From contig OMIX01000029.1 in assembly GCA_900299195.1 (NCBI GenBank), positions 1 to 38,310 on the forward strand: 38,310 nucleotides of DNA, read 5' to 3'. Under the pieces are notes generated by a model. The model was not told where the DNA came from, did not search any database, and saw nothing but the letters and a program-made list of their open reading frames with translations. The first letter of the stretch is position 1, and every line of letters starts with the position of its first letter. This stretch comes from Deltaproteobacteria bacterium (GTDB lineage: Bacteria; Bdellovibrionota; FAC87; UBA2466). Shown here one piece after another: positions 2,664 to 37,858 of this stretch. The position numbers were made by a program, and so were the translations under genes.

Positions 2664-3145
2664 ATACGGCTGAATTACTTAATGATAATTTTAGATTCGA
2701 AATTTCCGAAAGTTCCAATAAATACCATATTAAGCTCATTGGGATCATCGATGAAAATGCTGATTTATCTTCTTTGGTGAGTTGCAAAAACAAACCCATA
2801 GTCTTCAATTTCAAAGAAGTTTCATCCGTTAATTCCTGTGGAATCCGAACCTGGGTCAATTTTATGAAGGAATTAAATAATAGCTCTATTGAGTTCGTCG
2901 ACTGCCCTCCCACTATAGTTCGACAAATGAATATGGTTCCTAGTTTTTTAGGTAAAGCTAATGTCATTTCGGTTTATGTTCCTTATGTATGCGATGCTTG
3001 TGAACACGAACATCAGGAACTTACACAAATAAAAGATTATAAATCTGGGACTCCAGTAGCTGAGAGTTTAAAATGTCCCAACTGTTCTTCCGAAGAAATG
3101 GAGATAGACGGCAATGTCAAACAATACTTTGCGTTTGTTAAATAA
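2660..3145 (+). CDS. STAS-domain protein with C-terminal Cys4 zinc ribbon
   Basis: A 161-residue protein. Residues 1 to about 100 resemble a STAS (SpoIIAA-like) antagonist domain, with the signature loop VNSCGIRTWVNF at 57-68. In SpoIIAA the residue just before this Gly is the phosphorylated Ser; here it is Cys60, with Ser59 next to it. After the STAS core are two CxxC pairs, C110/C113 and C139/C142, which look like a zinc ribbon. The ATG overlaps the upstream stop by 4 bases and has AGGAG at 2648-2652. The 3' end overlaps the diguanylate cyclase start by 32 bases. The context (phosphatase, GHKL ATPase, STAS) supports a partner-switching role; the ribbon and the Cys substitution are unusual. 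It could alternatively be a non-phosphorylatable scaffold. Confidence 0.8.
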   Translation: MNTAELLNDNFRFEISESSNKYHIKLIGIIDENADLSSLVSCKNKPIVFNFKEVSSVNSCGIRTWVNFMKELNNSSIEFVDCPPTIVRQMNMVPSFLGKANVISVYVPYVCDACEHEHQELTQIKDYKSGTPVAESLKCPNCSSEEMEIDGNVKQYFAFVK

Positions 3146-4160
3146 CCCCTCTCATATTTCCTCAGATGAACTAAAAGCGGATTTACTTCAATGGGGAGAA
3201 AATCATTCTTCTTTGCTCAAAATCTTATTGGATTCCTACTGTATCGTAGATCTCCAAGGGAATATTGTTGCATGCAATATTGCTTTTGAGACATTAGTCG
3301 AACAATCTCAACGAAAAATTTTAAAAACTCCCCAATTCAATCACTTTTTAATCACTGAAACCACCCCCGAAAAATGGGAAAGCGTTTTTACCAGCGGAGA
3401 AAATTGGTATCGAGATGATGAAGTCTCCGCATCGATAAAAAGTAAATCCCAGGCGGAACCCAAACAAAAAAAACTGATTCTTGCTGCTATTCCCATTTTT
3501 TCTGGAACCCCAAGCCGGTTAGGCACTCTGGTTACCATTCGAGACGTGACAGATGAGTCTAATGTTCAGAACGAAAGAATTCAGAGTATCAACAAATCCA
3601 ATACCGATGGATTAACTCAACTGTGCAATAAAGTTTTTACTGAGGGTTGGCTAGTTAAGCAAATTGAATTAGCCCATAGAAATCCGAGTCCTATTTCTAT
3701 TTTGATGTCGGATGTCGACCACTTCAAAAAAGTTAATGATACTTACGGACATCAGGCGGGTGACTTTGTTTTACAAACCGTAGCTCGTTTGCTTCAGGAG
3801 GACATTCGAAAAGGAGATGTAGCCGGCAGATTCGGCGGAGAAGAGTTCATTGTAGTAATGAGCAACACCCCCTTGGAAGGCGCTTGGGTAGTGGCTGAAA
3901 GATTCAGAGAGAAACTTAAAAACCTTCGAGTTGAGTTTCAAGGAAAGGTGATTCCGCTGACCATTAGTATCGGAACCTCAACTTTATCGGAATTCAAATC
4001 GGTGGCGAACAGGAGTAGCGAAGAGATAAGCAAAATGTTGATAGCACAATGCGATCAGGCTCTCTATCATGCAAAACATACGGGTAGAAACCGTACATGC
4101 CAATTTGAAACTCTACCCGCAGAAAAAAAGACTGATCCTAAAGAATCAAAGGAATCTTAA
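3114..4160 (+). CDS. PAS-GGDEF diguanylate cyclase
   Basis: Makes the second messenger cyclic-di-GMP from two GTP. A PAS-like sensor region covers about residues 25-145 (LDSYCIVDLQGNIVACN near the start). The GGDEF domain spans about 160-330, with DVDHFKKVNDTYGH for metal and substrate binding and an intact GGEEF at 241-245. An RKGD at 232-235 lies exactly five residues before GGEEF, matching the RxxD inhibitory site, so product feedback is likely. No membrane helix or signal peptide is visible, so it should be cytoplasmic. The ATG lies inside the STAS gene with GGAG at 3100-3103 upstream. The last codons overlap a minus-strand terminator stem. This appears to be the last gene and possible output of the partner-switch operon. 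Confidence 0.92.
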   Translation: MSNNTLRLLNNPSHISSDELKADLLQWGENHSSLLKILLDSYCIVDLQGNIVACNIAFETLVEQSQRKILKTPQFNHFLITETTPEKWESVFTSGENWYRDDEVSASIKSKSQAEPKQKKLILAAIPIFSGTPSRLGTLVTIRDVTDESNVQNERIQSINKSNTDGLTQLCNKVFTEGWLVKQIELAHRNPSPISILMSDVDHFKKVNDTYGHQAGDFVLQTVARLLQEDIRKGDVAGRFGGEEFIVVMSNTPLEGAWVVAERFREKLKNLRVEFQGKVIPLTISIGTSTLSEFKSVANRSSEEISKMLIAQCDQALYHAKHTGRNRTCQFETLPAEKKTDPKESKES

Positions 4161-7192: not shown

Positions 7193-7696
7193 ATGTCCGA
7201 GGGGTACGAAATTGTGGTGTGGATAATTCTCATTGTAGCCTCTATCACAGATCTACTATGGGGAAAAATCTATAACTACCTCACTCTGACTTCTTTGGGG
7301 AGCGGTGTTCTAGTCCGCTTTGCCCTCGAAGGGACGCCTTCTTTTGCTATCACACTTCCAGCGATAGTCACTGCCCTCTGTTTATTTTTTCCCCTGTACT
7401 ATTTAAAAACTTTAGCTGCGGGTGATGTAAAACTACTCATGGCCGTGGCTCCTTGGGCTAACTTTCAGTGGGTCATTCACCTAGCCATCACCACTATTTT
7501 GTTAGGAGCCCTGGTTGGCCTCTTTGTCTTATTAAAGAAAAAAGGGCTTAAGAAAAGTGCGCAATCCATGGGTGAAGCAGTCAAAGCCCCGACGCACTCT
7601 TTCAACCAAATGACTCGAATGCCCTTTGCCCCAGCTTTTTTGTGTTCACTATTATTTTTAAAAATCGCGGAGTTTAAAGGATGGTCGTTATTCTAA
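7193..7696 (+). CDS. cpaA: Prepilin peptidase of the Tad system (A24 family, TadV/CpaA)
   Basis: An inner-membrane aspartic protease that removes leader peptides from Flp and pseudopilins. At 167 residues it has only the peptidase core, without the methyltransferase half of PilD, as in TadV. The two catalytic Asp are Asp20 in SITDLLWGKIYN and Asp78 in LAAGDVKLL; the usual GxGD motif reads AAGD here. About five membrane helices are visible. AAGGGGG at 7181-7187 is the ribosome site; it could pair with CCCTT at 7164-7168 and so be partly masked. The 3' end overlaps the next gene by 16 bases. It has five likely substrates in this operon. Confidence 0.92.
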   Translation: MSEGYEIVVWIILIVASITDLLWGKIYNYLTLTSLGSGVLVRFALEGTPSFAITLPAIVTALCLFFPLYYLKTLAAGDVKLLMAVAPWANFQWVIHLAITTILLGALVGLFVLLKKKGLKKSAQSMGEAVKAPTHSFNQMTRMPFAPAFLCSLLFLKIAEFKGWSLF

Positions 7697-7914
7697 AAAA
7701 TCGAAAAGGCCAAACGACTATCGAATGGCTTATGCTCTTAGCAGCCTCATTCACGACGGGGTATTTTATTGTGACGGGACCCTTTGCAACTTTTACGTCA
7801 AATTTATTAACCCGAATTCGAATCTATACCAACAATATTGTCTTAAGGGGAGAGTCCGACGCGAAAGCTCCCTCCCCTTCGGAACCCAAAAGATTTCGAC
7901 CGGTGCATTTATGA
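7681..7914 (+). CDS. Small pilin-like protein with class III signal
   Basis: A 77-residue protein beginning with a basic leader and KG|QTTIEW, a prepilin-type cleavage motif with Glu at mature position 5 and Trp in place of the usual Tyr/Phe. One hydrophobic helix (LMLLAASFTTGYFIV) follows. The C-terminal 25 residues are Pro/Ser/Arg-rich. It overlaps the peptidase gene by 16 bases and its stop overlaps the next ATG (ATGA), indicating coupled translation. It is likely a minor pilin or pseudopilin that initiates or caps the Tad pilus. It is not a clear TadE because it is short and has no C-terminal globular domain. Confidence 0.8.
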   Translation: MVVILKNRKGQTTIEWLMLLAASFTTGYFIVTGPFATFTSNLLTRIRIYTNNIVLRGESDAKAPSPSEPKRFRPVHL

Positions 7915-8444
7915 AAAACAGGGGCTATAAAAAGTTAAATGAGAAAGGCCAATCAGCGATAGAGTTTATCGTGGTTGTCGTCGTGGTCTTTTTCTTTCTT
8001 CTTTTTTACCTAAGCTTCTCTATCACCTTAATCGCCAGTGAATATGTGGACTACGCCACCTTCATGGCCGCTCGGACCTACAAATCAGGAAACATCGACC
8101 GGGACAGCCAAGAAGAAGCCGCCAGAAGAGTTTTTAATCAATATATAGCCCCTTTAGATTCTGTTATCCGTTCACCGACGATTACTTTTTCGCCGGCTAA
8201 TGTCCCGAACCAGACCGAGGGAGTCACCGCTCAATATCAGGTCGACCTCTTTTATCTGCCGCCCGTATTCATCAAAGACGGATCGGCTCCCCCCAGTCGA
8301 CTCACTTTAAGCTCTCAATCTTTACTAGGACGAGATCCGTCCTTAACTGACTGTCTTAGTTTCTTTCAAAGATATTCAAATCAAATGGGTTTGAACATTG
8401 GAAATACGTTCTTAATTAACTTAATGGATGATAACGGATGCTGA
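7911..8444 (+). CDS. TadE-like pseudopilin
   Basis: A 177-residue protein with leader MKNRGYKKLNEKG and cleavage motif G|QSAIEF, then a strongly hydrophobic helix containing a run of Val and Phe. The remaining ~125 residues form an extracytoplasmic domain with EYVDYATFMAARTY, reminiscent of TadE-like sequences. A frame extends upstream to 7725, but the ATG at 7911 is chosen because it begins the class III leader and overlaps the previous stop (ATGA). Its stop overlaps the next ATG by 7 bases. TadE-type pseudopilins are processed like Flp and are needed for pilus assembly. Confidence 0.85.
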   Translation: MKNRGYKKLNEKGQSAIEFIVVVVVVFFFLLFYLSFSITLIASEYVDYATFMAARTYKSGNIDRDSQEEAARRVFNQYIAPLDSVIRSPTITFSPANVPNQTEGVTAQYQVDLFYLPPVFIKDGSAPPSRLTLSSQSLLGRDPSLTDCLSFFQRYSNQMGLNIGNTFLINLMDDNGC

Positions 8445-8797
8445 GAGTTAAGTTACAACTTAAAACCCGATTGAATCATCGGGGACAGGCCGTAGTAGAA
8501 ATGGCATTAGCTATGCCCTTTTTGATTTGGCTGATCTATTACACTCTGAATGCTTTTTATACCATCCACTCTTCTCATATCGCTCAAAAATATTCGGCCA
8601 TGAATTTATACCAACGGCTCAATAACAGGTCGAAGATTTCAGTAGATGACATAAATAGAACCGTGGTCAATCGAGAATTTATTGCAGTTCAATACATGGA
8701 GCCCGAAGCCAATCGTCCTCCGCAGCGAAAAATTATCGCTGGGCCCAATGCGGTTAACAATGTTGTCGGCATTTGCCGAGAACCGGGGTGCAACTAA
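8438..8797 (+). CDS. TadE/TadF-like pseudopilin
   Basis: A 119-residue protein with basic leader ending HRG|QAVVEMALAMPFLIW, a typical TadE/TadG opening, with one hydrophobic helix and a short extracytoplasmic domain containing two Cys near the C-terminus (ICREPGC). It overlaps the preceding pseudopilin gene by 7 bases, and the first CpaB gene begins one base after its stop. It probably works with the TadE-like protein at 7911 as a pseudopilin pair. Assignment to TadE versus TadF cannot be made by eye. Confidence 0.83.
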   Translation: MLRVKLQLKTRLNHRGQAVVEMALAMPFLIWLIYYTLNAFYTIHSSHIAQKYSAMNLYQRLNNRSKISVDDINRTVVNREFIAVQYMEPEANRPPQRKIIAGPNAVNNVVGICREPGCN

Positions 8798-8798
8798 T

Positions 8799-9749
8799 AT
8801 GGATAAGAAACGTGCCTTTTTAATCTCCGCTGTTTTTTTGAGTATCTCGATTTTTTTAATCATGGCTTACACCGATGCTTTACAAACTGAGCTCACAAAA
8901 ACATTCGGCCCTCCAGTGGGAGTGGTAGTCGCTAAAACTTCTATTCCTGAATATGGAATCATACGTCCTGAAATGCTTGAAGTAGCCCCTATGTTTAAAA
9001 ATTTTTTACAAACGCAAACGGTGAGCGTAGCGCTCGGCGATGACATTGCCGCTAAAAAAGCTATCAATGAAGTTGCTGGAAAAGCGGCCTACGTTCCTAT
9101 TTACGCTGGAGAGCAAATCACCCTGACGAAATTGGTTCATCAAGATGGAAAACCGGTTCTCGACAGACAGGTCGAGAAGAAAATGAGAGCAATCACCGTA
9201 GCTGTGAGTCCAGCCACCGGGGTAGGAAGATTGATTCGCCCGGGAAACAGAGTAGATATTCTGGGAAAGGTTAACTACGAAATCAATGGGGCTGAGCAGT
9301 TCGAAGTTAAAACCTTTTTTCAAAATATTTTAGTTCTGGCCACGGGAAAAAATCTTCAGAACTCGGTTCCCACTAAAGTTACCCGAGAGGTTTTGTCAGC
9401 GCTCGAAGCTCAATTCGAGGAGCAAAAAAGAAAAGATTTATACACCACCAACGTCGACTCTGGAACTAGCCGTCCAGATGACAATTACACTCATATGACG
9501 TTACAGCTCACCCCCGATGATGCTGACAAACTTCTTTTTTTACAAAGTAAAATAGGTGATGGCGGTTTGTACTACACCTTGAGAAACAGCGCTGACTCTA
9601 GTGTAGTTTCTTTAGAGACTACGATTCTAGATCAAGTTTTGGGGCCAGACAGTGAATTAGGTAGAAGCAGAGTAAAATTCACTCCGCCTCCACCGTTGAA
9701 GCCTAAATATTATGACTCAGTAGGAGATAAAATTGTTCCCAAATTTTGA
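8799..9749 (+). CDS. cpaB: Flp pilus assembly protein CpaB/RcpC (first copy)
   Basis: A 316-residue periplasmic protein anchored by one N-terminal helix (RAFLISAVFLSISIFLIMAY). The SAF domain at about 40-115 has the family pattern GVVVAKTSIPEYGIIRPEML and later IYAGEQITLTKL. The RcpC region carries MRAITVAVSPATGVGRLIRPGNRVD followed by the second half with LQLTPDDADKL. CpaB/RcpC proteins support the outer-membrane secretin, possibly binding cell wall. The ATG at 8799 is preferred over an upstream one because it begins the membrane anchor. It is 42% or so similar in layout to the next gene, with the same length and ending, so the pair is a tandem duplication (similarity judged by eye only). 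Confidence 0.9.
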   Translation: MDKKRAFLISAVFLSISIFLIMAYTDALQTELTKTFGPPVGVVVAKTSIPEYGIIRPEMLEVAPMFKNFLQTQTVSVALGDDIAAKKAINEVAGKAAYVPIYAGEQITLTKLVHQDGKPVLDRQVEKKMRAITVAVSPATGVGRLIRPGNRVDILGKVNYEINGAEQFEVKTFFQNILVLATGKNLQNSVPTKVTREVLSALEAQFEEQKRKDLYTTNVDSGTSRPDDNYTHMTLQLTPDDADKLLFLQSKIGDGGLYYTLRNSADSSVVSLETTILDQVLGPDSELGRSRVKFTPPPPLKPKYYDSVGDKIVPKF

Positions 9750-9761
9750 GGATATTTAACT

Positions 9762-10709
9762 ATGCAAGACCGACGCGCATTTTTAATTTCAGTCTCTTTC
9801 TCAGTTCTGGCGATGTATTTAGTGTATCAGTACATTTCGGGGGAAGAACAAAGACTATCGGAGATGTACAAAAAAACGGTCACCGTAGTACGCGCGAAAA
9901 GAGATATCCTTCAATATGGATCCATACGACCTACCGATGTGGAAACGATTTCGGTTCCTAAAGCCATAGCTCCTGAAGGAGCTATCGATATTAAAGAGGA
10001 TGCTTTTGATGCAGTAGCCGCTGTTCCGATCAGTCAGGGTGAATTTATTTTGGACAATAAACTCATCTCAAAAAATGTCTACTCTGGACTCGAATCGCAA
10101 ATTTCAAAAGAGAAACGAGCTATCAGTATTCCCGTGAATGTCAAAAGTGCCGTAGGCTATTTGCTCCGCCCCGGCAACAGGGTCGATTTGGCGGCCCATT
10201 TTGAATATTTATTACCCAAACCTGGAAGCAATGGAACCAAAAATGCCTCGGAGGTTAAAGTGTTTTTGCAAGATCTGCTGGTTCTCGCCTCTGGAAGAAC
10301 TATCCAGACGACTCCCCCGAAAGCCGTGGACCAAAACATCATCCGAAGCTTGCGCGGCCTCAAAGATGATTCTTTGAATAAACAAACCGAGGGAGAACTC
10401 CGAGAAGCGCTCAATTTTGCCAAGGAAGATAAAAACTATCAAACGGTAACACTGGAAGTGACCCCGCAACAAGCCCAAACCCTAGTTTACGTTCAAAGTT
10501 TGTATGGAGAATCTCTAACTTTACAACTTCGTCATTCCGACGATAGACAACTGGAAAGTCGTCAGCCCGCTAACTTAGCGAAAGTTATGGGACCTGAATC
10601 CTACCTTAATAAAGGAAATAAATTGCCCCCGCCCATCGCCATTCCTAAATATAAGTTTTTTGATTATGTCGGTGATTCTAGTGTTCCTGTTCCAGCGGGA
10701 GGACCCTAA
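9762..10709 (+). CDS. cpaB: Flp pilus assembly protein CpaB/RcpC (second copy)
   Basis: A 315-residue paralogue of the preceding protein. It starts MQDRRAFLISVSF, with an anchor helix, then the SAF domain (VTVVRAKRDILQYGSIRPTDV) and the RcpC signature KRAISIPVNVKSAVGYLLRPGNRVD. Both copies share the C-terminal pattern of a GPDS/GPES motif, a Pro-rich stretch and a YDSVGD/FDYVGD segment. It follows the first copy by 12 bases and precedes the secretin gene by 2 bases. The two may form a mixed periplasmic assembly or serve different substrates. Tad loci normally carry one copy, as far as I know. Confidence 0.9.
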   Translation: MQDRRAFLISVSFSVLAMYLVYQYISGEEQRLSEMYKKTVTVVRAKRDILQYGSIRPTDVETISVPKAIAPEGAIDIKEDAFDAVAAVPISQGEFILDNKLISKNVYSGLESQISKEKRAISIPVNVKSAVGYLLRPGNRVDLAAHFEYLLPKPGSNGTKNASEVKVFLQDLLVLASGRTIQTTPPKAVDQNIIRSLRGLKDDSLNKQTEGELREALNFAKEDKNYQTVTLEVTPQQAQTLVYVQSLYGESLTLQLRHSDDRQLESRQPANLAKVMGPESYLNKGNKLPPPIAIPKYKFFDYVGDSSVPVPAGGP

Positions 10710-10711
10710 GT

Positions 10712-12331
10712 ATGAAACTGAAATTTAAGTTGATATTTTTAACTTTGCTGTTCATGGGTGGCGTAAATCTTACCTTGATGAGTTTCACTCACCACCTCTG
10801 GGCTGCTGAAGAAGCTTCTGAGGATAACGAAGAGCCTAAGTCGATCAAAGGCAAAGATAAATCACTCACACTCTCGGAGGGAACTTCTCGACAACTTGAA
10901 TTTCCCTTCGACCTGGGAAAAGTGGATATCGGCAATGAAGCTCTATTTTCCTTTGTGCGATTTCAGAAAAACGGAAAAGATAGAATCATTCGTTTTGTCC
11001 CAAAAACCTCCGGGACAACCACCATGACAATTTATGATGCCGAAGACAACCCAAGAATCACCTATACCGTTAGAGTCACTCGTGAAGATCTGGGCCAAAT
11101 CATCTCGCAATTGGAAGAGCTTCTAGGTGATGTCGAGGGACTCAAAATCAAATCGGTGGGAGGAACTGTAATACTCGATGGAGAGATTCTTCTCCCGAAA
11201 GATATGATTCGAATCAATCGCGTCATTCAGGCACTAAGAGAGCGAGATCCAAAAACTAGAGATAAATCGACTCCCATTAGAAATCTAACCACCATTGGAA
11301 AAGTCACCATGAATATTCTTGCTGAGAGAATTGAAAGGGAAATTAATTCTCCTGAAATCACAGCCCGAGTGATCAACAACACCATTCTTCTTGAGGGAAC
11401 GGCTGAAGGCGATGCAGATGCCGACAGAGCTTTCGAAATAGCTAAAACTTACCTTCCCGACGTAGTGAAACCCAGTACCTCAGGGGAACTCTCAAGTGTT
11501 CAAGGACGACTTCAAGGAGGTGACGCTGGAGGAAGTCCCATTATTATCGATTTAATGCGAGTAAGACCCAGACAAGCAGCTCCCCCCAAACAGGACATCA
11601 AAATCACTATCAATTATGTCGAGCTCACTAATGAATACCAAAAAGCTTTCAACTTTCAATGGAGACCCCTGGCATCGGACCAAAGCTCAGCCACATTCGA
11701 TACCAGTTTGGGGGAGATCAGTGCCAACCTGATTGCAACGGTCACTGGACTTTTGCCCAAGCTAAACACGGATAAAAATCACCAACACGCAAGGGTTTTA
11801 AAACAACAGACTATTATTGTTGAAGACGGCTCAGACAAAGAAGCGGCTATCGACAGTTCTCTCGACATTTATACTCGGGTTGTGGACAACCAAGGAAACG
11901 CGCAACTCAGTCCAATTCAAGTTCAAAATTCCTTAAAAGTTCGAGCAGCCACTTTACCGGGATCGGATTCTATTTCTTTGGGTCTTCAGGTTAACCTAAC
12001 TTCGCTTGTAGGAACCGATAATGGGCAACCTATCGTTGCACGAAACTCCATGCAAACGAAAGTGAACATCAAAAATGGTGATTCCGCTGCACTCGGAGGT
12101 TATGGAATTGACAATGCCCTAGCGGGGTATAACCGAGATCCCCAGAGAACAGTTTCGACTGGAAACAACAGTGGAAATGCCTCACCCATTTTCAACTTCA
12201 ATCGTACGAAAGGATTTCGACACGACAAGCAACAATATGTCATTTTCGTCACTCCTGAAGTTCTAAGAACCGCTAGCGCAGGAACTGACGATATCACCCG
12301 TAAGTTTCGACTTAACGCTGGGGAAAGATAG
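10712..12331 (+). CDS. cpaC: Outer-membrane secretin CpaC/RcpA
   Basis: Forms the outer-membrane pore through which the Flp pilus emerges. Residues 1-32 are a signal peptide ending near LWAAEE. An acidic linker and the pilus/BON-like N-domains follow (LTLSEGTSRQLEFPFDLGKVDIGN, then GGTVILDGEI and NNTILLEGTAEGDADADRAFEIAK). The C-terminal half (about 285-525) is the secretin domain, with DIKITINYVELTNEYQKAFNF at its start and QYVIFVTPEVL near the end. GGGAGGA at 10699-10705 lies upstream of the ATG. Length 539 is usual. No pilotin or RcpB gene is seen nearby. Confidence 0.92.
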   Translation: MKLKFKLIFLTLLFMGGVNLTLMSFTHHLWAAEEASEDNEEPKSIKGKDKSLTLSEGTSRQLEFPFDLGKVDIGNEALFSFVRFQKNGKDRIIRFVPKTSGTTTMTIYDAEDNPRITYTVRVTREDLGQIISQLEELLGDVEGLKIKSVGGTVILDGEILLPKDMIRINRVIQALRERDPKTRDKSTPIRNLTTIGKVTMNILAERIEREINSPEITARVINNTILLEGTAEGDADADRAFEIAKTYLPDVVKPSTSGELSSVQGRLQGGDAGGSPIIIDLMRVRPRQAAPPKQDIKITINYVELTNEYQKAFNFQWRPLASDQSSATFDTSLGEISANLIATVTGLLPKLNTDKNHQHARVLKQQTIIVEDGSDKEAAIDSSLDIYTRVVDNQGNAQLSPIQVQNSLKVRAATLPGSDSISLGLQVNLTSLVGTDNGQPIVARNSMQTKVNIKNGDSAALGGYGIDNALAGYNRDPQRTVSTGNNSGNASPIFNFNRTKGFRHDKQQYVIFVTPEVLRTASAGTDDITRKFRLNAGER

Positions 12332-12341
12332 AGAGACTGGT

Positions 12342-14510
12342 ATGGCTAATGGATTTATCATCGCAGTTTTAGGGGGCAAAGGGGGCGTCGGTAAATCTAC
12401 GTTTGCGGTGAACTATGCTATCGCGACGAGCATCGACTCGAAATCAAAAGTTTTACTAGTGGATTTAGACCCGAAGGCCTGCGGAGACCTTGGGATGTTA
12501 ATGGGTACTAAGCCCAAGAGAACTTTACTTGAACTTGGCTCTCACGAAGGAAAATTCGATCCTAACTTGTTACAAAACTACGTTGCAGTTCACCCTTCGG
12601 GGATTCATTATCTTCCCAGTGTTCTAGAGCCTGAGCAAATCGGGTCGTTGGATCCTTCCCATGTTGGAAAAGGGCTGTCACTTCTAACTGGATTTTACAA
12701 TTACATTATCGTGGATTTAGGTTCCGATATCGATCCCTTGACCGTTAAAGCATTGGAAAATTCTTCCCTCATTTATGTACTTACCTTGCCCGAGATTTTG
12801 GTGCTTCATCACACGCGACGTATTATTGAAAAGGTTCAAAACTTATTATTTCCGCCAGAAATGATCAAGCTAGTGGTAAACCGTTTTAGTGCCACCAAAG
12901 GGATCTCACCTCAAATGATTCAAGGGAATCTTAAAAAACCCGTTTTGGGCGTCATTCCCGAAGACGAATTAACCACAGTAAACTCAATGACCAAAGCCCA
13001 ACCCTTAATTGTAGGAGCCCCTAGAACGGAAATCACCAAGAGTTACTTTTTTCTCGTTAGAAATATCCAGCAACAACAAATTCTCGAAAAACTTTCTCAG
13101 CTCAAAAAACCCTCTGACGCTATCTCTAGACTAGGAGGAAATAAAACTGCAACTGCCTCCAAACCTAGCGACAAAGCGCCCAGCATGGTGGTCTTCGATC
13201 GAAGCCAGATGAAAGATGAAAAACCAGCCGATCAATGGTCATCTTTAAAACAACGAATTCACAAACAGTTAATTGAAACCATGGATCTTAAAAAAGTAGA
13301 TACTGAAACCGGAAATGATCCCAGAAAAAAAGCTGTTTTAAGAGAAAAAACCAAAACCGTGGTCGTTGAACTTTTGGATAAAGAAGAACACCCCTTCAGA
13401 TCTCGAGATGAAATTCAAAAACTCGTCAAAGAAATTTTAGATGAAGCTTTAGAGTTAGGCCCTATCCAGGATCTTCTCAATGATGATTCCGTAAACGAAA
13501 TCATGGTTAACCGTAAAGATCAGATTTTTGTTGAGAGAAAGGGAAAGCTCGTTTTATCCAATACGACTTTTTCTGGGACGGCCCAGCTATTAGCCTGTAT
13601 CGAGAGAATAGTCACCTCTGTGGGGAGACGTATTGATGAAAAGCAACCCTATGTGGATGCTCGTCTTGTCGACGGTTCAAGGGTTCACGCCATTATTCCG
13701 CCACTTTCGATCCAAGGTCCTATGTTGACCATTCGGAAGTTTTCTAAAAGTCGTCTCACTTACAAAGATCTTGTGAAGTACGGATCAATGACCGAAGAGA
13801 TGGCCGACTTTCTTCGTTGTTGTATTGAGGCAAGACTCAATATCGTCATTTCCGGAGGTACCGGCTCTGGTAAAACCACCCTTCTCAACATCATGGCAGC
13901 TTTTATTCCCCCTGGAGAGCGCATTCTTACTGTAGAGGATTCGGCCGAATTACAACTTCCCCAAGAACACTGGGGACGCTTAGAGACTCGCCCCGCCAAC
14001 ATGGAAGGAAAAGGGGAAGTGACTATTCGGGATCTCGTAAGAAACACTTTGAGGATGAGACCTGACCGAATTGTCATCGGAGAGTGTCGAGCCGGGGAAG
14101 CTTTGGATATGCTTCAAGCGATGAATACCGGTCACGATGGGAGCATGACAACCGTGCACTCCAATACTCCTCGTGATGCCGTAGCCCGATTAGAAACCCT
14201 TTGCTTGATGGCGGGAATGGATCTTCCAGCCAAAGCCATACGGGAGCAAATTGCCTCTGCAGTTAATTTAATCATTCAGCAAACTCGTCTTGCAGATGGC
14301 TCAAGAAAAGTGACGAGCATTACGGAAGTGATTGGAATGCAGGGAGAAGTTGTGACCATGCAAGAAATATTTGGTTTCAGGAAAACTGGGATGGATAAGG
14401 ACCGTAAAGTGGTAGGGAAGTTTGTAGCTACTGGTTTTATTCCTAAATTTATCGACGAATTGGACCAACAAGGAATCAAAATTCCCAGAGGTATTTTTTC
14501 AGTAGGTTAA
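12342..14510 (+). CDS. MinD/CpaE-like and CpaF (TadA) ATPase fusion
   Basis: A 722-residue single chain. Residues 1 to about 245 are a MinD/ParA-type ATPase like CpaE/TadZ, with deviant Walker A KGGVGKST at 13-20, VDLDPKACGDLG and IIVDLGSDID. The N-terminal receiver-like domain of classic CpaE is absent. A Lys/Ser-rich linker (about 250-300) leads to a complete CpaF/TadA assembly ATPase: VNEIMVNRKDQIFVE near 384, Walker A GGTGSGKTT at 505-513 (Lys511), catalytic Glu in LTVEDSAEL, and Walker B with His motif in RIVIGECRAGEALDML and GSMTTVHSNTPRDA. Both halves keep their nucleotide motifs, so both look active. The frame has no stop or obvious frameshift at the join. In most Tad operons these are two genes. 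It would join localisation and motor functions. Confidence 0.93.
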   Translation: MANGFIIAVLGGKGGVGKSTFAVNYAIATSIDSKSKVLLVDLDPKACGDLGMLMGTKPKRTLLELGSHEGKFDPNLLQNYVAVHPSGIHYLPSVLEPEQIGSLDPSHVGKGLSLLTGFYNYIIVDLGSDIDPLTVKALENSSLIYVLTLPEILVLHHTRRIIEKVQNLLFPPEMIKLVVNRFSATKGISPQMIQGNLKKPVLGVIPEDELTTVNSMTKAQPLIVGAPRTEITKSYFFLVRNIQQQQILEKLSQLKKPSDAISRLGGNKTATASKPSDKAPSMVVFDRSQMKDEKPADQWSSLKQRIHKQLIETMDLKKVDTETGNDPRKKAVLREKTKTVVVELLDKEEHPFRSRDEIQKLVKEILDEALELGPIQDLLNDDSVNEIMVNRKDQIFVERKGKLVLSNTTFSGTAQLLACIERIVTSVGRRIDEKQPYVDARLVDGSRVHAIIPPLSIQGPMLTIRKFSKSRLTYKDLVKYGSMTEEMADFLRCCIEARLNIVISGGTGSGKTTLLNIMAAFIPPGERILTVEDSAELQLPQEHWGRLETRPANMEGKGEVTIRDLVRNTLRMRPDRIVIGECRAGEALDMLQAMNTGHDGSMTTVHSNTPRDAVARLETLCLMAGMDLPAKAIREQIASAVNLIIQQTRLADGSRKVTSITEVIGMQGEVVTMQEIFGFRKTGMDKDRKVVGKFVATGFIPKFIDELDQQGIKIPRGIFSVG

Positions 14511-14512
14511 TA

Positions 14513-15388
14513 ATGACAGCAACTCTTTACAAATTCTTGTCTATTGGATGGGTAGGTGGAGTTCTACTTGTGGGATTACTACTCAACGGAGAACAGCTCT
14601 ATGGTTGGGTAGGACAAAGATTTCGCTCAGAGCAAGATGAGATGCGACGGCTTTTAGATCTGATGTTTATTTCTATCACCCCCGAAAGATTAAATTTACT
14701 TTATTTTCTCTACCTGTTGGGATTGTTCGGACTTGCGATTCTTTTTTTCGCCCCTTCTGTCGGAGGAAGTGTTTTCTTTGGATTTTTATTTATATCCGTG
14801 GGTTGGACTTTTCCGAGAAGAGTTTTGACTCTCATGCATCGTCGCCGAATCAAAAAATTTGTTCTGCAAATGATCGATGGGCTTTCTCTCATGTCGAATG
14901 GGCTTCGTTCGGGACTTAACGTGCCTCAAGCGCTACAAATTGTAACCGAGGAGCTTCCCAATCCCATCTCTCAAGAATTTGCTCTGGTACTCTCTCAAAA
15001 CAAACTGGGTGTTACGTTGGAAGACGCCATGTCAAATCTATCAGTTCGAATGCCGGCCGATGACATTGAAATGTTTACCACTAGTGTCAATATTCTTAAG
15101 GAAACTGGGGGTAACTTAGCCGAAACTTTTGACACTATCTCCAATACGATTCGAGAGAGAATTAAAGTGGAATCAAAAATTTCAGCTATGGTCTCTCAAG
15201 GTGTAATGCAAGGAGTTATCGTTGTTCTCATGCCCTTTGCCCTAGCGGGAGTTCTCTATGCCGTGGATCCTGAGAGAATTTCTCCTATGTTTACTACGAT
15301 TCCAGGTTGGGCTCTGCTTCTATTGATGATGAGTTTGCAATTTCTGGGCGGGTTTACTATTTGGAAAATCGTTCAGATTAAAGTCTAA
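14513..15388 (+). CDS. tadB: Inner-membrane Tad platform protein TadB
   Basis: A 291-residue inner-membrane protein of the GspF/TadB type that anchors the pilus machine to the CpaF motor. Membrane helices lie near 9-27, 62-105, 235-255 and 268-287. The cytoplasmic GspF domain at about 115-235 has MIDGLSLMSNGLRSGLNVPQAL and ILKETGGNLAETFDTISNTIRER, both characteristic. The gene follows the fused ATPase by two bases. It is the last gene of the pilus operon; the usual partner TadC does not follow, so either TadB acts alone or TadC lies elsewhere. Confidence 0.9.
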   Translation: MTATLYKFLSIGWVGGVLLVGLLLNGEQLYGWVGQRFRSEQDEMRRLLDLMFISITPERLNLLYFLYLLGLFGLAILFFAPSVGGSVFFGFLFISVGWTFPRRVLTLMHRRRIKKFVLQMIDGLSLMSNGLRSGLNVPQALQIVTEELPNPISQEFALVLSQNKLGVTLEDAMSNLSVRMPADDIEMFTTSVNILKETGGNLAETFDTISNTIRERIKVESKISAMVSQGVMQGVIVVLMPFALAGVLYAVDPERISPMFTTIPGWALLLLMMSLQFLGGFTIWKIVQIKV

Positions 15389-17585: not shown

Positions 17586-20500
17586 ATGACAAAGCTAGCG
17601 CTTTGCGCTATGTCATCGGCCAGAAACATTAACGATATTGATATGATGAATGACACAAAAGACCTCCCTTTAGGTATTACTGGTTTTAATTTTTCAGACC
17701 TCTACCAACCCTTACGACTAAAAGACCTCCATTCCGAGTTTTGGAAATATTGTGATGAAGCCTACCCTGAAACCGCTAAGAAATTTCGAGCTTTAAATCC
17801 CGAAACATCTTATGCCGAAGAAGGAAATGTTTTAATCGATACTGCCAAAGTAGTGGGAGAATTCATTGCAAAACTATTTAACATCGCTAACCACACGGCT
17901 TTGGTGAAGGCCACAACCCAAGAACTCCAACCTACTTTCAAGTTCAAAAAAGATTTCTTAAACATTCGAGTCTTTAAACGTTTTACCGAAAACCCATGTT
18001 CTCAAGAAGAGTGGAAAAAACTCGACGCTTTAGTAAAAAAGATTTTAACCCAAGCTCCTCAAAAAGCTGCCAAAGAACCTGAAGTCCAGTTAGCTGAGAT
18101 TGTTCTCTTTCTAGTGGATTCTGAAAAACAACTAAAGACTGGATCCCTAGCCACTCCGGAACAAAATCGACTACAAAATCTTCTTCTTCACTTCCCGGGT
18201 TCCAACGTGAGTGAAAAAGTAGTGGCGGCTCTAAAAACTTTCGAGGACTGGTGTGTTCAGGTTTGGGTACACCCTGATCGCAGGGAAGCCATTCATGGAT
18301 GGGGTTCTTTTGTCAGAGCTGAAAAGCTTGATTTCGATCACTTGGTAGAAACCCTTCATCCTAAAACAGATCTTCCCGAAATGGTTTATGGTCCTGAAGA
18401 ACACTTGCGCCAACGAGTAGGATTCAAGCTCACCGATCCCAGAATGACCACGAAGGAATATCTTCGCGAAGTCGATTATTGCATTTACTGCCACGAGAGA
18501 AAAAAAGATTCTTGTTCCAAAGGTTTCGAGGAAAAAACCGGTGGCTACAAAAAGAATCCTTTAGGAATTTCTCTCACAGGTTGCCCACTCGACGAAAGAA
18601 TTTCAGAAATGCATGTGCTTAGAAGAGAGGGTGAAGTTATCGGTGCTCTTTCCATGATCATGCTAGACAATCCGATGTGCCCTGGAACTGGCCACCGAAT
18701 CTGCAACGATTGCATGAAGGGCTGCATTTTTCAAAAGCAAGATCCGGTCAACATTCCTCAAACGGAAACCGGGACTCTGACGGACGTCTTAAATCTCCCT
18801 TATGGATTTGAAATTTATAGCTTGTTGACTCGATGGAATCCCATCAATCGAAAACGCCCTTACGCCCTCCCCTACAATGGCAAAAACATTCTGGTTGTGG
18901 GCCTAGGGCCTGCGGGTTACACGGCTGCTCACTACTTCGCCAATGAAGGGTTTGGAGTCGTTGGAATTGATGCTTTAAAACTGGAACCTGTGGATCCCAA
19001 CCTATCGGGAAGAGGAAAAGCATTTCCGAAACCTATTCAAAACTTCTCTGAAATGAGAAAAGAATTGGACGAAAGATTTCTGATGGGTTTTGGCGGAGTT
19101 TCGGAATATGGCATTACCGTTCGGTGGGATAAAAACTTTTTATCGGTCATTTATCTAAGCCTTCTTAGACGCAAGGGTGTTAGATTCTACGGTGGAGTTC
19201 GATTCGGAGGAACGATCAACTTAGAAGATGCCTGGAATTTGGGTTTCCATCATGTCGCCTTGGCCACAGGAGCTGGAAATCCCACGATTATCGACATGAA
19301 AAACAATTTATGCCGTGGAATAAGAAAGGCGTCGGACTTCCTCATGGCGCTTCAACTCACAGGAGCTTTTAAGAAAACGTCGATGGCTAATCTTCAGGTT
19401 CGGCTTCCAGCTTTAGTGATTGGTGGCGGTCTCACCGCTATCGATACGGCTACTGAACTCATGGCTTACTATCCCCTTCAAGTTGAAAAAGCTCTTGAGA
19501 GGTTCGAAGGCATCAGCAAATCGGTGGGAGAAGAAGCTACATGGGCAATGTGTTCTGCTGAAGAGAAGGAAATTTTAAAAACCTTCCTAGAACACGGAAA
19601 AGCTATTCGTGAAGAAAGAGCGAATGCTAAAAAGGAAAAAAGACAACCTAACTTTATTCCGCTTTGCCGAAGCTGGGGTGGAGTCAGTGTCGTTTATCGA
19701 AAGAAACTTTCCGACTCTCCGGCTTATCGACTTAACCATGAAGAAGTAGAAAAAGCGTTAGAAGAAGGAATTGGATTCATTGAAAATATGACCCCAGTCG
19801 AAGCGGTCAAAGATTCCTTTGGGGCTGTCGAAGCTCTCATTTTTAAAAGAGCCAATGGAGAAACCCTCTCTCTTCCTGCTAAATCAGTGATGGTAGCTGC
19901 TGGAACCAGTCCGAATACCATTTACGAAAGAGAATTTCCCGGAAGCTTCAAACTTGATGAACGTGGCAATTTCTTCAAAAAATATCGAGCTGAACACTCT
20001 GGAGACAAATGGAATTTGGTCGAAGGCAGTAAAGATGACAACAAGGCGTTCCTTCTCTCCTACGAAAAAGAGGGCAAGTTTGTTTCTTACTACGGTGATA
20101 ACCATCCTGACTACGCAGGCAACGTCGTTAAAGCCATGGCTTCTGCCAAACATGGGACTCAAGAAGTGGCTAAATTATTCGCCACTGACATTTTACTAGC
20201 GGATAAAAGTCCTTCAGACACCACCCGTTTTGAGAATCTCATCAAGCACCTCGACGAAGCTTTAATTCCTAGAGTTGTTAAAGTGGTTCGCCTCACAGAG
20301 ACCATTGTTGAAGTTATCGTCAAAGGTCATTATGCAGCGACTCGCTTCGAGCCTGGACAGTTTTATCGATTCCAAAATTACGAGACCTCAGCACACATGA
20401 TTGATGGTTCTCGACTGACCATGGAAGCTTTAGCTCTCACTGGGGCTTGGGTTGACAAAGAAAAAGATCTGCTAAGCATGATTGTTCTTGAAATGGGCGG

Positions 20501-21239
20501 CAGTTCTAAACTGTGTTCTATTTTAAAACCGGGAGAACCCGTGGTAGTCATGGGACCCACGGGTGCACCTAGTGAAATCGCTGAAAATGAAACTGTTCTT
20601 TTGGCTGGGGGCGGATTAGGAAATGCGGTGCTCTTAAGCATTTCGAGAGCTCTCAAAGCAAGAAATTGCAAAGTTCTCTATTTCGCCGGCTACAAAAAAA
20701 GCACAGATCTGTTCAAACAGCATGAAATAGAAGAAGCCACCGATCAAATGATTTGGGCGACCGACTCTGGAGAAGCCATCACACCTCATCGCCCTCAAGA
20801 CAGGTCATATGTCGGCAATATTGTTAAAGCGATGGAAGCCTATGGCAAAGGAGAACTGGGAGGAGCCCCTATGTTTCCTCTTAATACGGTGGATCGTATT
20901 TTTGTCATTGGTTCGGATCGGATGATGGCTGCAGTAGGTGCGGCTAGACACGGAGTTTTAAAACCCTACTTAAAAAATAATCATGTAGCGATTGCTTCCG
21001 TTAACTCACCCATGCAATGCATGATGAAAGAGGTTTGCGCTCAATGTCTACAAAGACATGTGGATCCGGTCACAGGGAAAGAGACGTTTGTCTTCTCGTG
21101 CTTCAATCAAGATCAAGAGATCGATAAGGTCGATTTCACTAACTTGAATGATCGATTAAAAACGAACGCTCTACTTGAGAAGCTAGCCGACAAATATCTC
21201 GATAGCCTTCTTAAAAAAGGCTCTTTAGAACAAATTTAA
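17586..21239 (+). CDS. GltD-like and PyrK/NfnA-like flavin/iron-sulfur oxidoreductase fusion
   Basis: A 1217-residue cytoplasmic redox enzyme. Residues 1 to about 295 form an unrecognised helical domain. Residues 298-400 hold a GltD/NfnB-type iron-sulfur region: CIYCHERKKDSC, TGCPLDERI and CNDCMKGC. An FAD/NAD(P) domain follows, with GLGPAGYTAAHYF near 439 and a second nucleotide site VIGGGLTAIDTATE near 613. Residues from about 890 on resemble the ferredoxin-reductase subunit of PyrK/NfnA: FEPGQFYRFQN, a nucleotide loop LLAGGGLGNAVLLS, and a [2Fe-2S] motif C-x5-C-x2-C-x17-C near 1145-1173. This is the content of a two-subunit NADH-ferredoxin:NADP reductase in one chain. The substrate is unproven. 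The start is uncertain: ATGs at 17586, 17610 and 17643 all lack a ribosome site. Confidence 0.85.
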   Translation: MTKLALCAMSSARNINDIDMMNDTKDLPLGITGFNFSDLYQPLRLKDLHSEFWKYCDEAYPETAKKFRALNPETSYAEEGNVLIDTAKVVGEFIAKLFNIANHTALVKATTQELQPTFKFKKDFLNIRVFKRFTENPCSQEEWKKLDALVKKILTQAPQKAAKEPEVQLAEIVLFLVDSEKQLKTGSLATPEQNRLQNLLLHFPGSNVSEKVVAALKTFEDWCVQVWVHPDRREAIHGWGSFVRAEKLDFDHLVETLHPKTDLPEMVYGPEEHLRQRVGFKLTDPRMTTKEYLREVDYCIYCHERKKDSCSKGFEEKTGGYKKNPLGISLTGCPLDERISEMHVLRREGEVIGALSMIMLDNPMCPGTGHRICNDCMKGCIFQKQDPVNIPQTETGTLTDVLNLPYGFEIYSLLTRWNPINRKRPYALPYNGKNILVVGLGPAGYTAAHYFANEGFGVVGIDALKLEPVDPNLSGRGKAFPKPIQNFSEMRKELDERFLMGFGGVSEYGITVRWDKNFLSVIYLSLLRRKGVRFYGGVRFGGTINLEDAWNLGFHHVALATGAGNPTIIDMKNNLCRGIRKASDFLMALQLTGAFKKTSMANLQVRLPALVIGGGLTAIDTATELMAYYPLQVEKALERFEGISKSVGEEATWAMCSAEEKEILKTFLEHGKAIREERANAKKEKRQPNFIPLCRSWGGVSVVYRKKLSDSPAYRLNHEEVEKALEEGIGFIENMTPVEAVKDSFGAVEALIFKRANGETLSLPAKSVMVAAGTSPNTIYEREFPGSFKLDERGNFFKKYRAEHSGDKWNLVEGSKDDNKAFLLSYEKEGKFVSYYGDNHPDYAGNVVKAMASAKHGTQEVAKLFATDILLADKSPSDTTRFENLIKHLDEALIPRVVKVVRLTETIVEVIVKGHYAATRFEPGQFYRFQNYETSAHMIDGSRLTMEALALTGAWVDKEKDLLSMIVLEMGGSSKLCSILKPGEPVVVMGPTGAPSEIAENETVLLAGGGLGNAVLLSISRALKARNCKVLYFAGYKKSTDLFKQHEIEEATDQMIWATDSGEAITPHRPQDRSYVGNIVKAMEAYGKGELGGAPMFPLNTVDRIFVIGSDRMMAAVGAARHGVLKPYLKNNHVAIASVNSPMQCMMKEVCAQCLQRHVDPVTGKETFVFSCFNQDQEIDKVDFTNLNDRLKTNALLEKLADKYLDSLLKKGSLEQI

Positions 21240-34762: not shown

Positions 34763-37474
34763 TTAATCTTCTAACTGGCTCACTAACACTTGAATTTCGA
34801 ACCTTCCTTTGGGAGTAGTCCCAGTGACTTTGTGGGTTGCATAAAGACGATTAAAGTTATTTACCGAAGCCTTACCGGTATAGATATTGGGTAGAGACAG
34901 CTGAAAATTCATTCCCTTCCCTTCTAGCTCTCGCATTAAATTTCCCCCAATTTGATTGCTCACTTCATTTAAACAATCGAACAGATCCAGTTTTTTCTGC
35001 TCAGGAGCTAATTGATCGATTTCAATCGTGTTTTGCAACAAAGCTTTCGCACAATTTAATTCATAACTGAGAAACAAAGTAAGATCGGGTTCATTCTCAA
35101 CTGGGGAAGAGCAAGAAATGATAGCAGTCACTCCCCCCTCAAATCCGATAAGATCCGATTGAGAAGAGAGGGGATGATAAACTAAGGGAAGCCCCAGAGA
35201 ACCAAATTGGAGTTGACACTGTTTTTTCGCCTCTTCCAAAACAGTTCGAGTCACTACAGCCACCTGAGAAGGCACAGTTGGAGTCACTTGCATCTCTTGA
35301 GGCAATCTGAAGTCTCCCACTAAGTAAAAGAGAAATCCATTCCATTCGACGGAGTAACAATAAGTAGGCTTTCCTAAAATTCTAAGAGGCTGTCCCCATC
35401 CAAAATAGGTGAGTGGATAGAGCGCCCTGACCGAAACGCCATCGGAGGTGCTTCTCTCTGAAATTTGGTGTCCCATATCTTTGCCAAATTCCGTAAGCGC
35501 CTCAACATTGTACTTAATGGATAACCGGCTTTTTCGACCGGTGACTCTGGGTAAAATACACTGATTAAAAGTATCTTCAGGCACTAAAAGTCCGGCATAC
35601 CCTACTCTCTCTCCGTTGAATTGAACCAAGGTCCCGTAAGGTTGAGATAATGCTTTTTGGAAATCAAGTTCCGGCAGAACTTTTAACTTTTTGTCACTGG
35701 AAGATACGGCCAAAATACTTTCTAAGCTCGTCAGATGGTAATGTCCTAAAAAGAAATACCCACGATTTTCGCTTTGAGTAGCAGCCCAAATGGACTGTAA
35801 GATCCGAGCTTCTAATCTTCGAACTTGAAACATGGAATAACTATTATTTTCCTTGAAAGCTTCACACAAAGCCTTCACACAAACACCTGTTTCCACAATC
35901 AAGTCAATATTACTAGAGTCGAGGACTGTTTTTTCTTCTGCTACCAACTTCAAAAGATCTTCATAGTTGTGGCACAAGCTAGCGACCCGATTCCAACTCA
36001 GAAATCCTACTACCCCTTTCACGCTGTGAACCAATCGGTAAGCTTCATAAGCTGCAGCTACATTTTTTTCCTTTGAAATCGCATGAAGACTTAGTGTCAG
36101 ACGATCGAGGTAGCCCGATAATTCATCTAATAACAAAGTTTTTTCTTCCTCTTCAGCGACCGAAATTTGAGGGTTAACCGACTGTTCACTTTTGGCCATC
36201 GAAAAATCTTCATTTAGAGGAATGAGTAACTCAATTGCAGTACCAAAAGTAGAGCTAGACAAAACCTTGACCCTTCCACCGATAGACTCTACACCTCTTC
36301 GGACAATATCTAATCCCAGCCCTCTTCCTGAAATGGTATTGGCAGAATCTCGAGTGGAAAATCCGGAGTGAAAAACTAAGGGGGCTAAATCTTCGCTAAG
36401 CATATTTTTAGCCTGTCTTTCGTTGATGATTCCTCTTAGAGTTGCTTTTTCGCGAATTTTCTCAAAATCAAATCCTGAACCATCATCACTTACCACGAGT
36501 CTCAGTTCATTTTCAGAAAAGGCAGCTCGTGTTTTGATAGTTCCAAAAGCGGATTTGCCCTTTTTTTCTCTTTCGTAAGGTAATTCGATTCCATGGTCGA
36601 CTGCATTTCTAAATAGGTGCAACATGGGCTCATAGAGGTGATTTAAAAGTAATTTATCCAAATAGAGCCATGTTCCCTGGGTAACGAAACGAATTTCTTT
36701 CGACTGCTCTTTGGCGATCTCTTGAACAAGCTTGTTTGCTGGTGCAAAAAGAGACTCTAAAGACTCAGACTTCATTTGTCTCATCATTCGCTTGACCCGT
36801 TTGATCTCAGTTCTCATTTGGGTTCTAGCTTTGGGGCCCGTGAACAATCGACGCTCTAATTGTTCTATTGTTTTCAATCGAGAATAAACAGCTTCCAATT
36901 GGGAGGCGTAAACTCTGATTTTTCGAGGTTCAAGAATAGCTTGTCGACTCGAAATTTCCTCAAGAAGCTCTGGGGAGGAAGCATTCAAACTAAAAAAAAC
37001 TTTGAAAGAACCATATCTCGTTTCAACCGGACAAACGTAACAGGAAGCTCGCTCAATGGAGACCTGATAATTTTGCCTAAGACCTCCCCCCTTTTTCAGT
37101 TCGCTCTGAAAATCTTCAGAGGCAAACTGCTTTTCAATTGAGCTTGCAAGAGATTCAAAAATAACTGAGAGAGTAGCTACCAAGGATTCAGTCTCTATTT
37201 CTTCTTGAATGTTAAGCTGTTGGGAAAATACTTTTAAAGCGGGAACATCCACTCCAACTCCAATAAACCCTTCTAACTCTCCCACCACCTTAGCATCGAT
37301 CCAAAATGCAAATTTTTCATCACTTGATACTGGAGCCATTTCGCCAAATAAGACTTCCGACTTCAACAACGGACACAATGACTCGATCAAAACTCGGGTG
37401 AGTAAGCTATAAACTGGAAACTCTTTTGCTGTCTCCAAAACTTTATAGTCAAGTTTTAGAACCGAGGAACTCAT
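34763..37474 (-). CDS. Hybrid CheA-type kinase: CheX-like, ATPase, HPt, CheX-like
   Basis: A 903-residue cytoplasmic signalling protein. Residues 50-170 resemble CheX/CheC phosphatase-fold sequence (GELEGFIGVGVDVPALKVFSQ, then VIFESLASSIEKQF) but lack the Asn of the ExxN motif. A helical dimerisation-like region leads to a CheA HATPase: N-box HLFRNAVDHGIE near 287, DDGSGFDFEKI near 328 and SGRGLGLDIV near 383. An HPt domain follows at about 445-540, with phospho-His His483 in HSVKG. After ~250 less clear residues comes a second CheX-like domain containing EVSN (837-840), the ExxN phosphatase motif, and later NIYTGKA. Normal CheA has HPt first and a CheW-like domain last; neither holds here. 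It begins three bases after a CheY-type gene, its probable partner. Confidence 0.8.
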   Translation of the reverse strand: MSSSVLKLDYKVLETAKEFPVYSLLTRVLIESLCPLLKSEVLFGEMAPVSSDEKFAFWIDAKVVGELEGFIGVGVDVPALKVFSQQLNIQEEIETESLVATLSVIFESLASSIEKQFASEDFQSELKKGGGLRQNYQVSIERASCYVCPVETRYGSFKVFFSLNASSPELLEEISSRQAILEPRKIRVYASQLEAVYSRLKTIEQLERRLFTGPKARTQMRTEIKRVKRMMRQMKSESLESLFAPANKLVQEIAKEQSKEIRFVTQGTWLYLDKLLLNHLYEPMLHLFRNAVDHGIELPYEREKKGKSAFGTIKTRAAFSENELRLVVSDDGSGFDFEKIREKATLRGIINERQAKNMLSEDLAPLVFHSGFSTRDSANTISGRGLGLDIVRRGVESIGGRVKVLSSSTFGTAIELLIPLNEDFSMAKSEQSVNPQISVAEEEEKTLLLDELSGYLDRLTLSLHAISKEKNVAAAYEAYRLVHSVKGVVGFLSWNRVASLCHNYEDLLKLVAEEKTVLDSSNIDLIVETGVCVKALCEAFKENNSYSMFQVRRLEARILQSIWAATQSENRGYFFLGHYHLTSLESILAVSSSDKKLKVLPELDFQKALSQPYGTLVQFNGERVGYAGLLVPEDTFNQCILPRVTGRKSRLSIKYNVEALTEFGKDMGHQISERSTSDGVSVRALYPLTYFGWGQPLRILGKPTYCYSVEWNGFLFYLVGDFRLPQEMQVTPTVPSQVAVVTRTVLEEAKKQCQLQFGSLGLPLVYHPLSSQSDLIGFEGGVTAIISCSSPVENEPDLTLFLSYELNCAKALLQNTIEIDQLAPEQKKLDLFDCLNEVSNQIGGNLMRELEGKGMNFQLSLPNIYTGKASVNNFNRLYATHKVTGTTPKGRFEIQVLVSQLED

Positions 37475-37477
37475 AAA

Positions 37478-37858
37478 TTAAGCGGCATCTCCCGTCTTTT
37501 TGCGTTCACAAACTTTATGGATGACTGAATTCAGGGAATCTTTGTCGAATGGTTTTTTCAAAAACGCATTAGCGCCAGCCTGGTGGGCTGCTTGTTCATT
37601 GGCCAACGTAGCGGCAGAGCTAATCATGATGATTAGAACCTCTTTGTTCTCGTAGCGGATGGCTCTTAGCGTCGAAAGCCCATCAAGTTCCGGCATTACT
37701 AGGTCTAAAGTGACGAGATCCGGCTTTTGATGGGTAATAATTTTTAGTGCCTCAAACCCATTCTCAGCTTCCCCAATAACTTGGTGCCCCAAATCTTTAA
37801 GAAACCTAGCTAACTTAATTCGAATAGTTGAAGAATCATCAGCAATTACAACTTTCAT
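37478..37858 (-). CDS. CheY-like single-domain response regulator
   Basis: A 126-residue receiver domain without output domain. It has the acidic pair in IADDSSTIR, the phospho-acceptor Asp in TLDLVMPELDG near residue 52, the switch Ser in IIMISSAA and the Lys in FLKKPFD, all as in CheY. A short basic C-terminus follows. GGGGAGAG precedes the ATG. The kinase gene starts three bases downstream, so the two form an operon in which the kinase HPt would phosphorylate this regulator and the ExxN CheX-like domain could dephosphorylate it. Confidence 0.92.
   Translation of the reverse strand: MKVVIADDSSTIRIKLARFLKDLGHQVIGEAENGFEALKIITHQKPDLVTLDLVMPELDGLSTLRAIRYENKEVLIIMISSAATLANEQAAHQAGANAFLKKPFDKDSLNSVIHKVCERKKTGDAA

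Follow-up and report, generated by a model that had tools for sequence, protein, structure and literature searches.

CheA is normally defined by its CheW-mediated link to receptors, and the locus described here raises the question of how a CheA-like kinase might be governed, and what it might control, where that link appears to be missing. The window (the whole stretch of DNA analyzed, 38,310 nucleotides) derives from a flagellated bacterium of the Bdellovibrio group in which all chemotaxis receptors appear to have been lost. It carries a CheA-like kinase gene adjoining a gene for a CheY-type receiver, and the initial annotation, made from the sequence alone, had described both open reading frames with coordinates and lengths that agree with ours. 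The junction reads TAA-ttt-ATG, with the CheY stop codon 3 nt upstream of the kinase ATG. The features of the gene pair are these:

37478..37858, minus strand: stand-alone CheY-type receiver, 126 aa (Pfam Response_reg, 4e-28)
34763..37474, minus strand: CheA-like kinase, 903 aa (ORF, Pfam, AF2, orthologs)
36980..37414, minus strand: N-terminal CheX-fold domain, residues 21-165, no ExxN (AF2 and Foldseek)
36776..36907, minus strand: P3-like dimerization helical hairpin, residues 190-233 (AF2; alignment to 4xiv)
36212..36763, minus strand: CheA-type P4 ATPase, residues 238-421 (Pfam HATPase_c, PDB CheA P4)
35852..36157, minus strand: HPt (P1-like), residues 440-541 (Pfam Hpt 447-532, 26.2 bits)
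36026-36028, minus strand: putative phospho-acceptor H483, in HSVKG (invariant in orthologs)
35306..35686, minus strand: middle CheX-like domain, residues ~597-723, E662-xx-K665 (AF2, ortholog Pfam, hhalign)
34778..35269, minus strand: C-terminal CheX domain, residues 736-899 (Pfam CheX; aligned to 3hzh and 3h4y)
34955-34966, minus strand: ExxN (E837/N840) of the C-terminal CheX domain (alignment to solved CheX)

Several other gene groups lie elsewhere in the window. At 1-4160 (plus strand) a SpoIIE phosphatase with HAMP, a HATPase partner and a GGDEF protein together resemble a partner-switch module. A Tad/Flp pilus operon occupies 7193-15388 (plus strand), with an A24 prepilin peptidase, TadE, two RcpC/CpaB, a secretin and T2SSF, and it includes a MinD/ParA-like domain fused to a T2SSE ATPase (12342-14510). 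A 1217-aa protein at 17586-21239 (plus strand) has Pyr_redox_2 in its middle (residues 434-794), and the remainder of the protein has no Pfam match.

Kinase core, CheY partner and orthologs

The domain order of the kinase is CheX(N) - P3-like hairpin - P4 ATPase - HPt - CheX(M) - CheX(C), where M denotes the middle domain. Three Pfam profiles pass their curated cutoffs, HATPase_c (residues 285-421), Hpt (447-532) and CheX (793-869), in an order that bears out the earlier proposal of an ATPase core followed by an HPt domain. The N, G1, F and G2 boxes of P4 are intact (HATPase_c, 52.5 bits), and CheA P4 structures in the PDB align from about residue 230 (E ~1e-37), while CheA P1 structures match residues 447-526 of the HPt (1tqg, E 7.5e-6). 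On the strength of these P4 and P1 structure matches we regard the kinase core as CheA-type, with its HPt placed after the ATPase. Ahead of P4, the AF2 helices 190-208 and 214-233 form a P3-like hairpin, and this region aligns to the CheA P3P4 structure 4xiv in both Foldseek and hmmsearch; Pfam H-kinase_dim gave no match. AF2 modeled the whole protein with modest confidence (pLDDT 67, pTM 0.37), so the packing of the domains is not readable from it.

The initial annotation had suggested that the same domain order be sought in other genomes; three genera of the family have full-length orthologs, with identities of 42-79%. His483 within HSVKG, previously picked out as the phosphotransfer site, falls inside the Pfam Hpt match and is invariant, together with K486, in 8/8 full-length orthologs, as are the N box, DDG and SGRGLGL. 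Among 369 genomes of the phylum we found no full-length kinase outside the family, and none was found in plasmids. A single-protein scan of wider genome contigs returned three close relatives; a query of this kind finds close relatives only, so the kinase may also occur in other phyla.

The pairing with CheY, which had been noted for this locus, is kept at nine loci in three genera: counting the window itself, a CheY gene lies upstream of every intact kinase 5' end. Residues D7, D8, D52 and K102 of CheY are conserved in an alignment of the nine partners. In the genus labeled g7 the kinase is followed by a co-directional protein that begins with a hydrophobic stretch and has weak TPR repeats (L010:4197-5198, L011:482-1480, L012:490-1485), possibly an operon partner.

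CheX-like domains and the ExxN motif

Both ends of the kinase had been called CheX-like before, and both assignments stand, the C-terminal one by Pfam and the N-terminal one by AF2 and Foldseek. Structure prediction of the terminal regions, set beforehand as a possible refutation, returned a CheX fold for the N-terminal end. Modeled alone by AF2 (pLDDT 70, pTM 0.70), this domain has CheX 3hm4 as its best Foldseek match (E=3.4e-8, TM 0.75 by target), and all of its matches below E 0.001 are to CheX, CheC, FliY or FliM/C-ring proteins. The corresponding search with the whole model was uninformative about the CheX domains, as CheA P4 matches swamped the result. Pfam CheX does not match the N-terminal domain and its hhalign score is weak (18.4, against a shuffle maximum of 17.2); its CheX identity is therefore accepted on structure only. 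No ExxN was found in the N-terminal domain of any of the eight orthologs. As to the "ExxA" previously reported for this region, the fold is upheld and the register of the motif is uncertain, since counting from the helix end as in the middle and C-terminal domains puts the equivalent position at ~102-104, not 107.

The region between the HPt and the C-terminal domain, where CheW would be expected, is occupied by a further CheX-like domain that had been overlooked. Its order of helices and strands in the AF2 model is the same as that of the C-terminal domain, and hhalign relates it at 78% to CheX plus the C-terminal domain (score 37.0, shuffle maximum 18.6), placing E662 on E837 and K665 on N840. 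Pfam CheX does not match the middle domain of the window protein above cutoff; it touches that of the orthologs L009, L010 (weakly) and L011, with 28.8 bits for the whole L009 protein (best stretch in the middle domain) and 24.4 bits for the L011 middle domain alone, against a cutoff of 27. E662 is invariant in the orthologs and position 665 varies (K/R/S/N/A), such that L011 is the one ortholog with a full ExxN here; the window protein has none. A CheW-like domain in residues 545-800 was considered and rejected, both Pfam and hhalign against the CheW of genomes G002 and G005 being negative. The earlier statement that the kinase has no receptor-coupling domain accordingly holds for this stretch, in which a CheW had been named as the finding that would overturn it. 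The companion idea, in which a degenerate copy at the N-terminus would regulate an active one, finds no support. The protein has three CheX-like copies instead of two, and in most orthologs from outside the genus no copy carries a complete ExxN.

The C-terminal domain scores 30.3 bits with Pfam CheX (curated cutoff 27), and E837 and N840, correctly located by the initial annotation, coincide with the catalytic ExxN of the solved CheX structures 3hzh and 3h4y (LNEVSN versus LTEVGN). This ExxN is intact in each own-genus sequence that reaches it (5/5) but in none of the five copies from three other genera: in L009-L012 E837 is replaced by H/V/L/A and N840 by T/Q/E/H, and a contig-end fragment in G002 has DxxS in its place. 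As judged from these alignments, the putative phosphatase motif is a lineage trait and not a family trait.

This pattern bears directly on the self-contained phospho-cycle proposed earlier, in which the C-terminal CheX would actively remove the phosphate of CheY-P and one polypeptide would set the steady level of CheY-P. The match of E837/N840 to the catalytic motif and its invariance within the genus are as such a cycle would predict; CheX requires both ExxN residues (PMC3510030). In addition, the single CheX match in the source genome is the one in the kinase, and CheC and CheZ were searched for there and neither was found. Against the cycle stands the replacement of both residues in L009-L012 and the G002 fragment, so the family as a whole does not conserve this function; with the middle-domain ExxN confined to L011, a conserved role as phosphatase is excluded. 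We therefore consider the one-chain kinase-phosphatase cycle plausible only for some members, and tentatively place it just short of an even chance. What stands of the earlier proposal is at best a putative, lineage-specific activity, as in the window's own genus.

Nearly as credible, if still somewhat below even odds, is the possibility that the CheX-like domains are non-catalytic and serve in CheY docking (P2-like), dimerization or product sensing, the ExxN of one genus being incidental or secondary. The fold persists in all three places even as the motif drifts: the N-terminal domain is without ExxN in every ortholog, as are most middle domains, where E662 stays invariant though position 665 varies. 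The strict conservation of ExxN in the window's own genus, however, argues for its use there.

CheX matches are also numerous elsewhere in Bdellovibrionota. Many of them (L030-L059) are proteins of 270-340 aa that are extended at the N-terminus by ~100-150 aa, a stretch that may be an anti-sigma-antagonist-like domain.

Receptors, CheW and the flagellar switch

Gene presence and absence were assessed by targeted HMM searches of genomes that are all draft assemblies. CheW and MCPsignal were both undetected in all 10 genomes (three genera) with a confident kinase match, control genomes being positive in these searches. In the source genome neither CheW nor MCP was detected, so the absence of receptor coupling, claimed earlier for the protein, holds at the genome level as well. 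With tblastn, canonical CheA was recovered from G002 and G005 alone. G002 combines a canonical CheA/CheW/MCP system with a C-terminal fragment of the kinase, which shows that kinase and chemosensory array can coexist; because of this genome we gave up the notion that kinase and CheW are strictly complementary. The fragment (L068:1492-1752), cut by the contig end, adjoins the same glycosyltransferase as in the window.

The missing receptors and CheW could be taken as signs that the kinase is a functionless CheA, decaying after loss of the chemosensory array. We disfavor this explanation and consider it very improbable, because eight orthologs, down to 42% identity, have full-length ORFs with intact catalytic motifs, and the pairing with CheY is retained.

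The flagellar switch is the most likely output of the module. FliG is present in all 14 genomes of the family and FliM in 13 of them, and FliM of the source genome begins MAEVLSQNEIDALL, which we take to be the CheY-binding motif. The motif is also kept in G003 and G004, two genomes of the family that have no CheW, MCP or detected kinase, so it counts as weak evidence for the output and not as proof of a CheY-FliM link. CheY-P might instead act on some other target, as in systems with alternative cellular functions. That the kinase gene lies outside any flagellar cluster (within the window annotation), that the FliM motif is conserved whether the kinase is present or not, and that the g7 copies are followed by the TPR-like protein would all fit such a role. 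Yet CheY is by Pfam a bare receiver with no output domain, and every kinase-bearing genome keeps flagellar genes; we regard a non-flagellar output as unlikely.

Proposed mechanism and relation to known systems

The account that we favor, with a probability of roughly 0.6 for the whole, is that of a CheA-derived kinase, free of CheW and receptors, that feeds CheY and the flagellar switch and uses CheX folds as a replacement for the coupling module. The kinase would dimerize through the P3-like hairpin, and possibly also through pairing of its CheX folds, and P4 would phosphorylate H483 of the tethered HPt, from which the phosphoryl group would pass to D52 of the adjacent CheY. The N-terminus of FliM is the most likely point at which CheY-P would act on the flagellar switch. 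In place of a CheW-type coupling module the kinase has three CheX folds, whose most likely role is to bind CheY, positioning or sensing it; in the window's own genus the C-terminal copy (E837/N840) may also dephosphorylate CheY-P. More speculatively, and in our estimation improbably, a CheA that had lost receptors and CheW may have rebuilt its regulation out of CheX folds, homologs of the switch proteins FliM/FliY. Control would then come from the kinase's own product CheY-P or from docking at the flagellar C-ring, and in the window's own genus the protein would be a one-chain kinase-phosphatase besides. If this is true, the kinase would be an array-free controller of switching.

With canonical CheA (P1-P2-P3-P4-P5) the kinase shares a predicted P3-like hairpin, P4, a CheA-type HPt and a CheY partner, whereas it has no P5/CheW, an HPt that follows the ATPase, three added CheX folds and a genome without detected receptors or CheW. 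In a survey of 13,673 CheA sequences every homolog had all four core domains, CheW included (PMC10782961); by that CheW criterion the present protein is CheA-like and not a CheA. The same survey described fusions of CheC/CheX to F1 CheAs in Leptospirae, for which its authors suggest a dual kinase/phosphatase function (PMC10782961). These likewise unite a CheA-type kinase and a CheX-type domain in one chain, but they keep the four core domains including CheW (PMC10782961), whereas the kinase described here is without CheW, has its HPt after the ATPase and carries three CheX-like domains. The CheX phosphatases (PF13690; 3hzh, 1xko, 3hm4) resemble its N-terminal domain in fold and its C-terminal domain in profile and ExxN; they differ in that the copies here are kinase-fused and three in number, with the motif missing from the N-terminal and middle domains and from the C-terminal domain of other genera. 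The bipartite CheA3/CheA4 of Rhodobacteraceae (described in PMC10782961), which show that the canonical CheA order is not essential, have a similarly non-canonical arrangement of HPt and ATPase, but there two distinct proteins make up the working unit, CheA3 bearing a CheW domain at its C-terminus, and the present kinase is one chain. The literature that we searched, which leaves out most subscription literature, contained no description of this architecture. A CheA-CheX fusion is already known, and the order without CheW is a new variation on it.

These observations suggest that a module of kinase and CheY can survive on its own, a different fold standing in for the coupling domain. The CheX domains of the family form a natural series, with the catalytic motif present in one copy or another or gone altogether, and the gene pair provides a compact natural model for the production and removal of CheY-P where there is no array.
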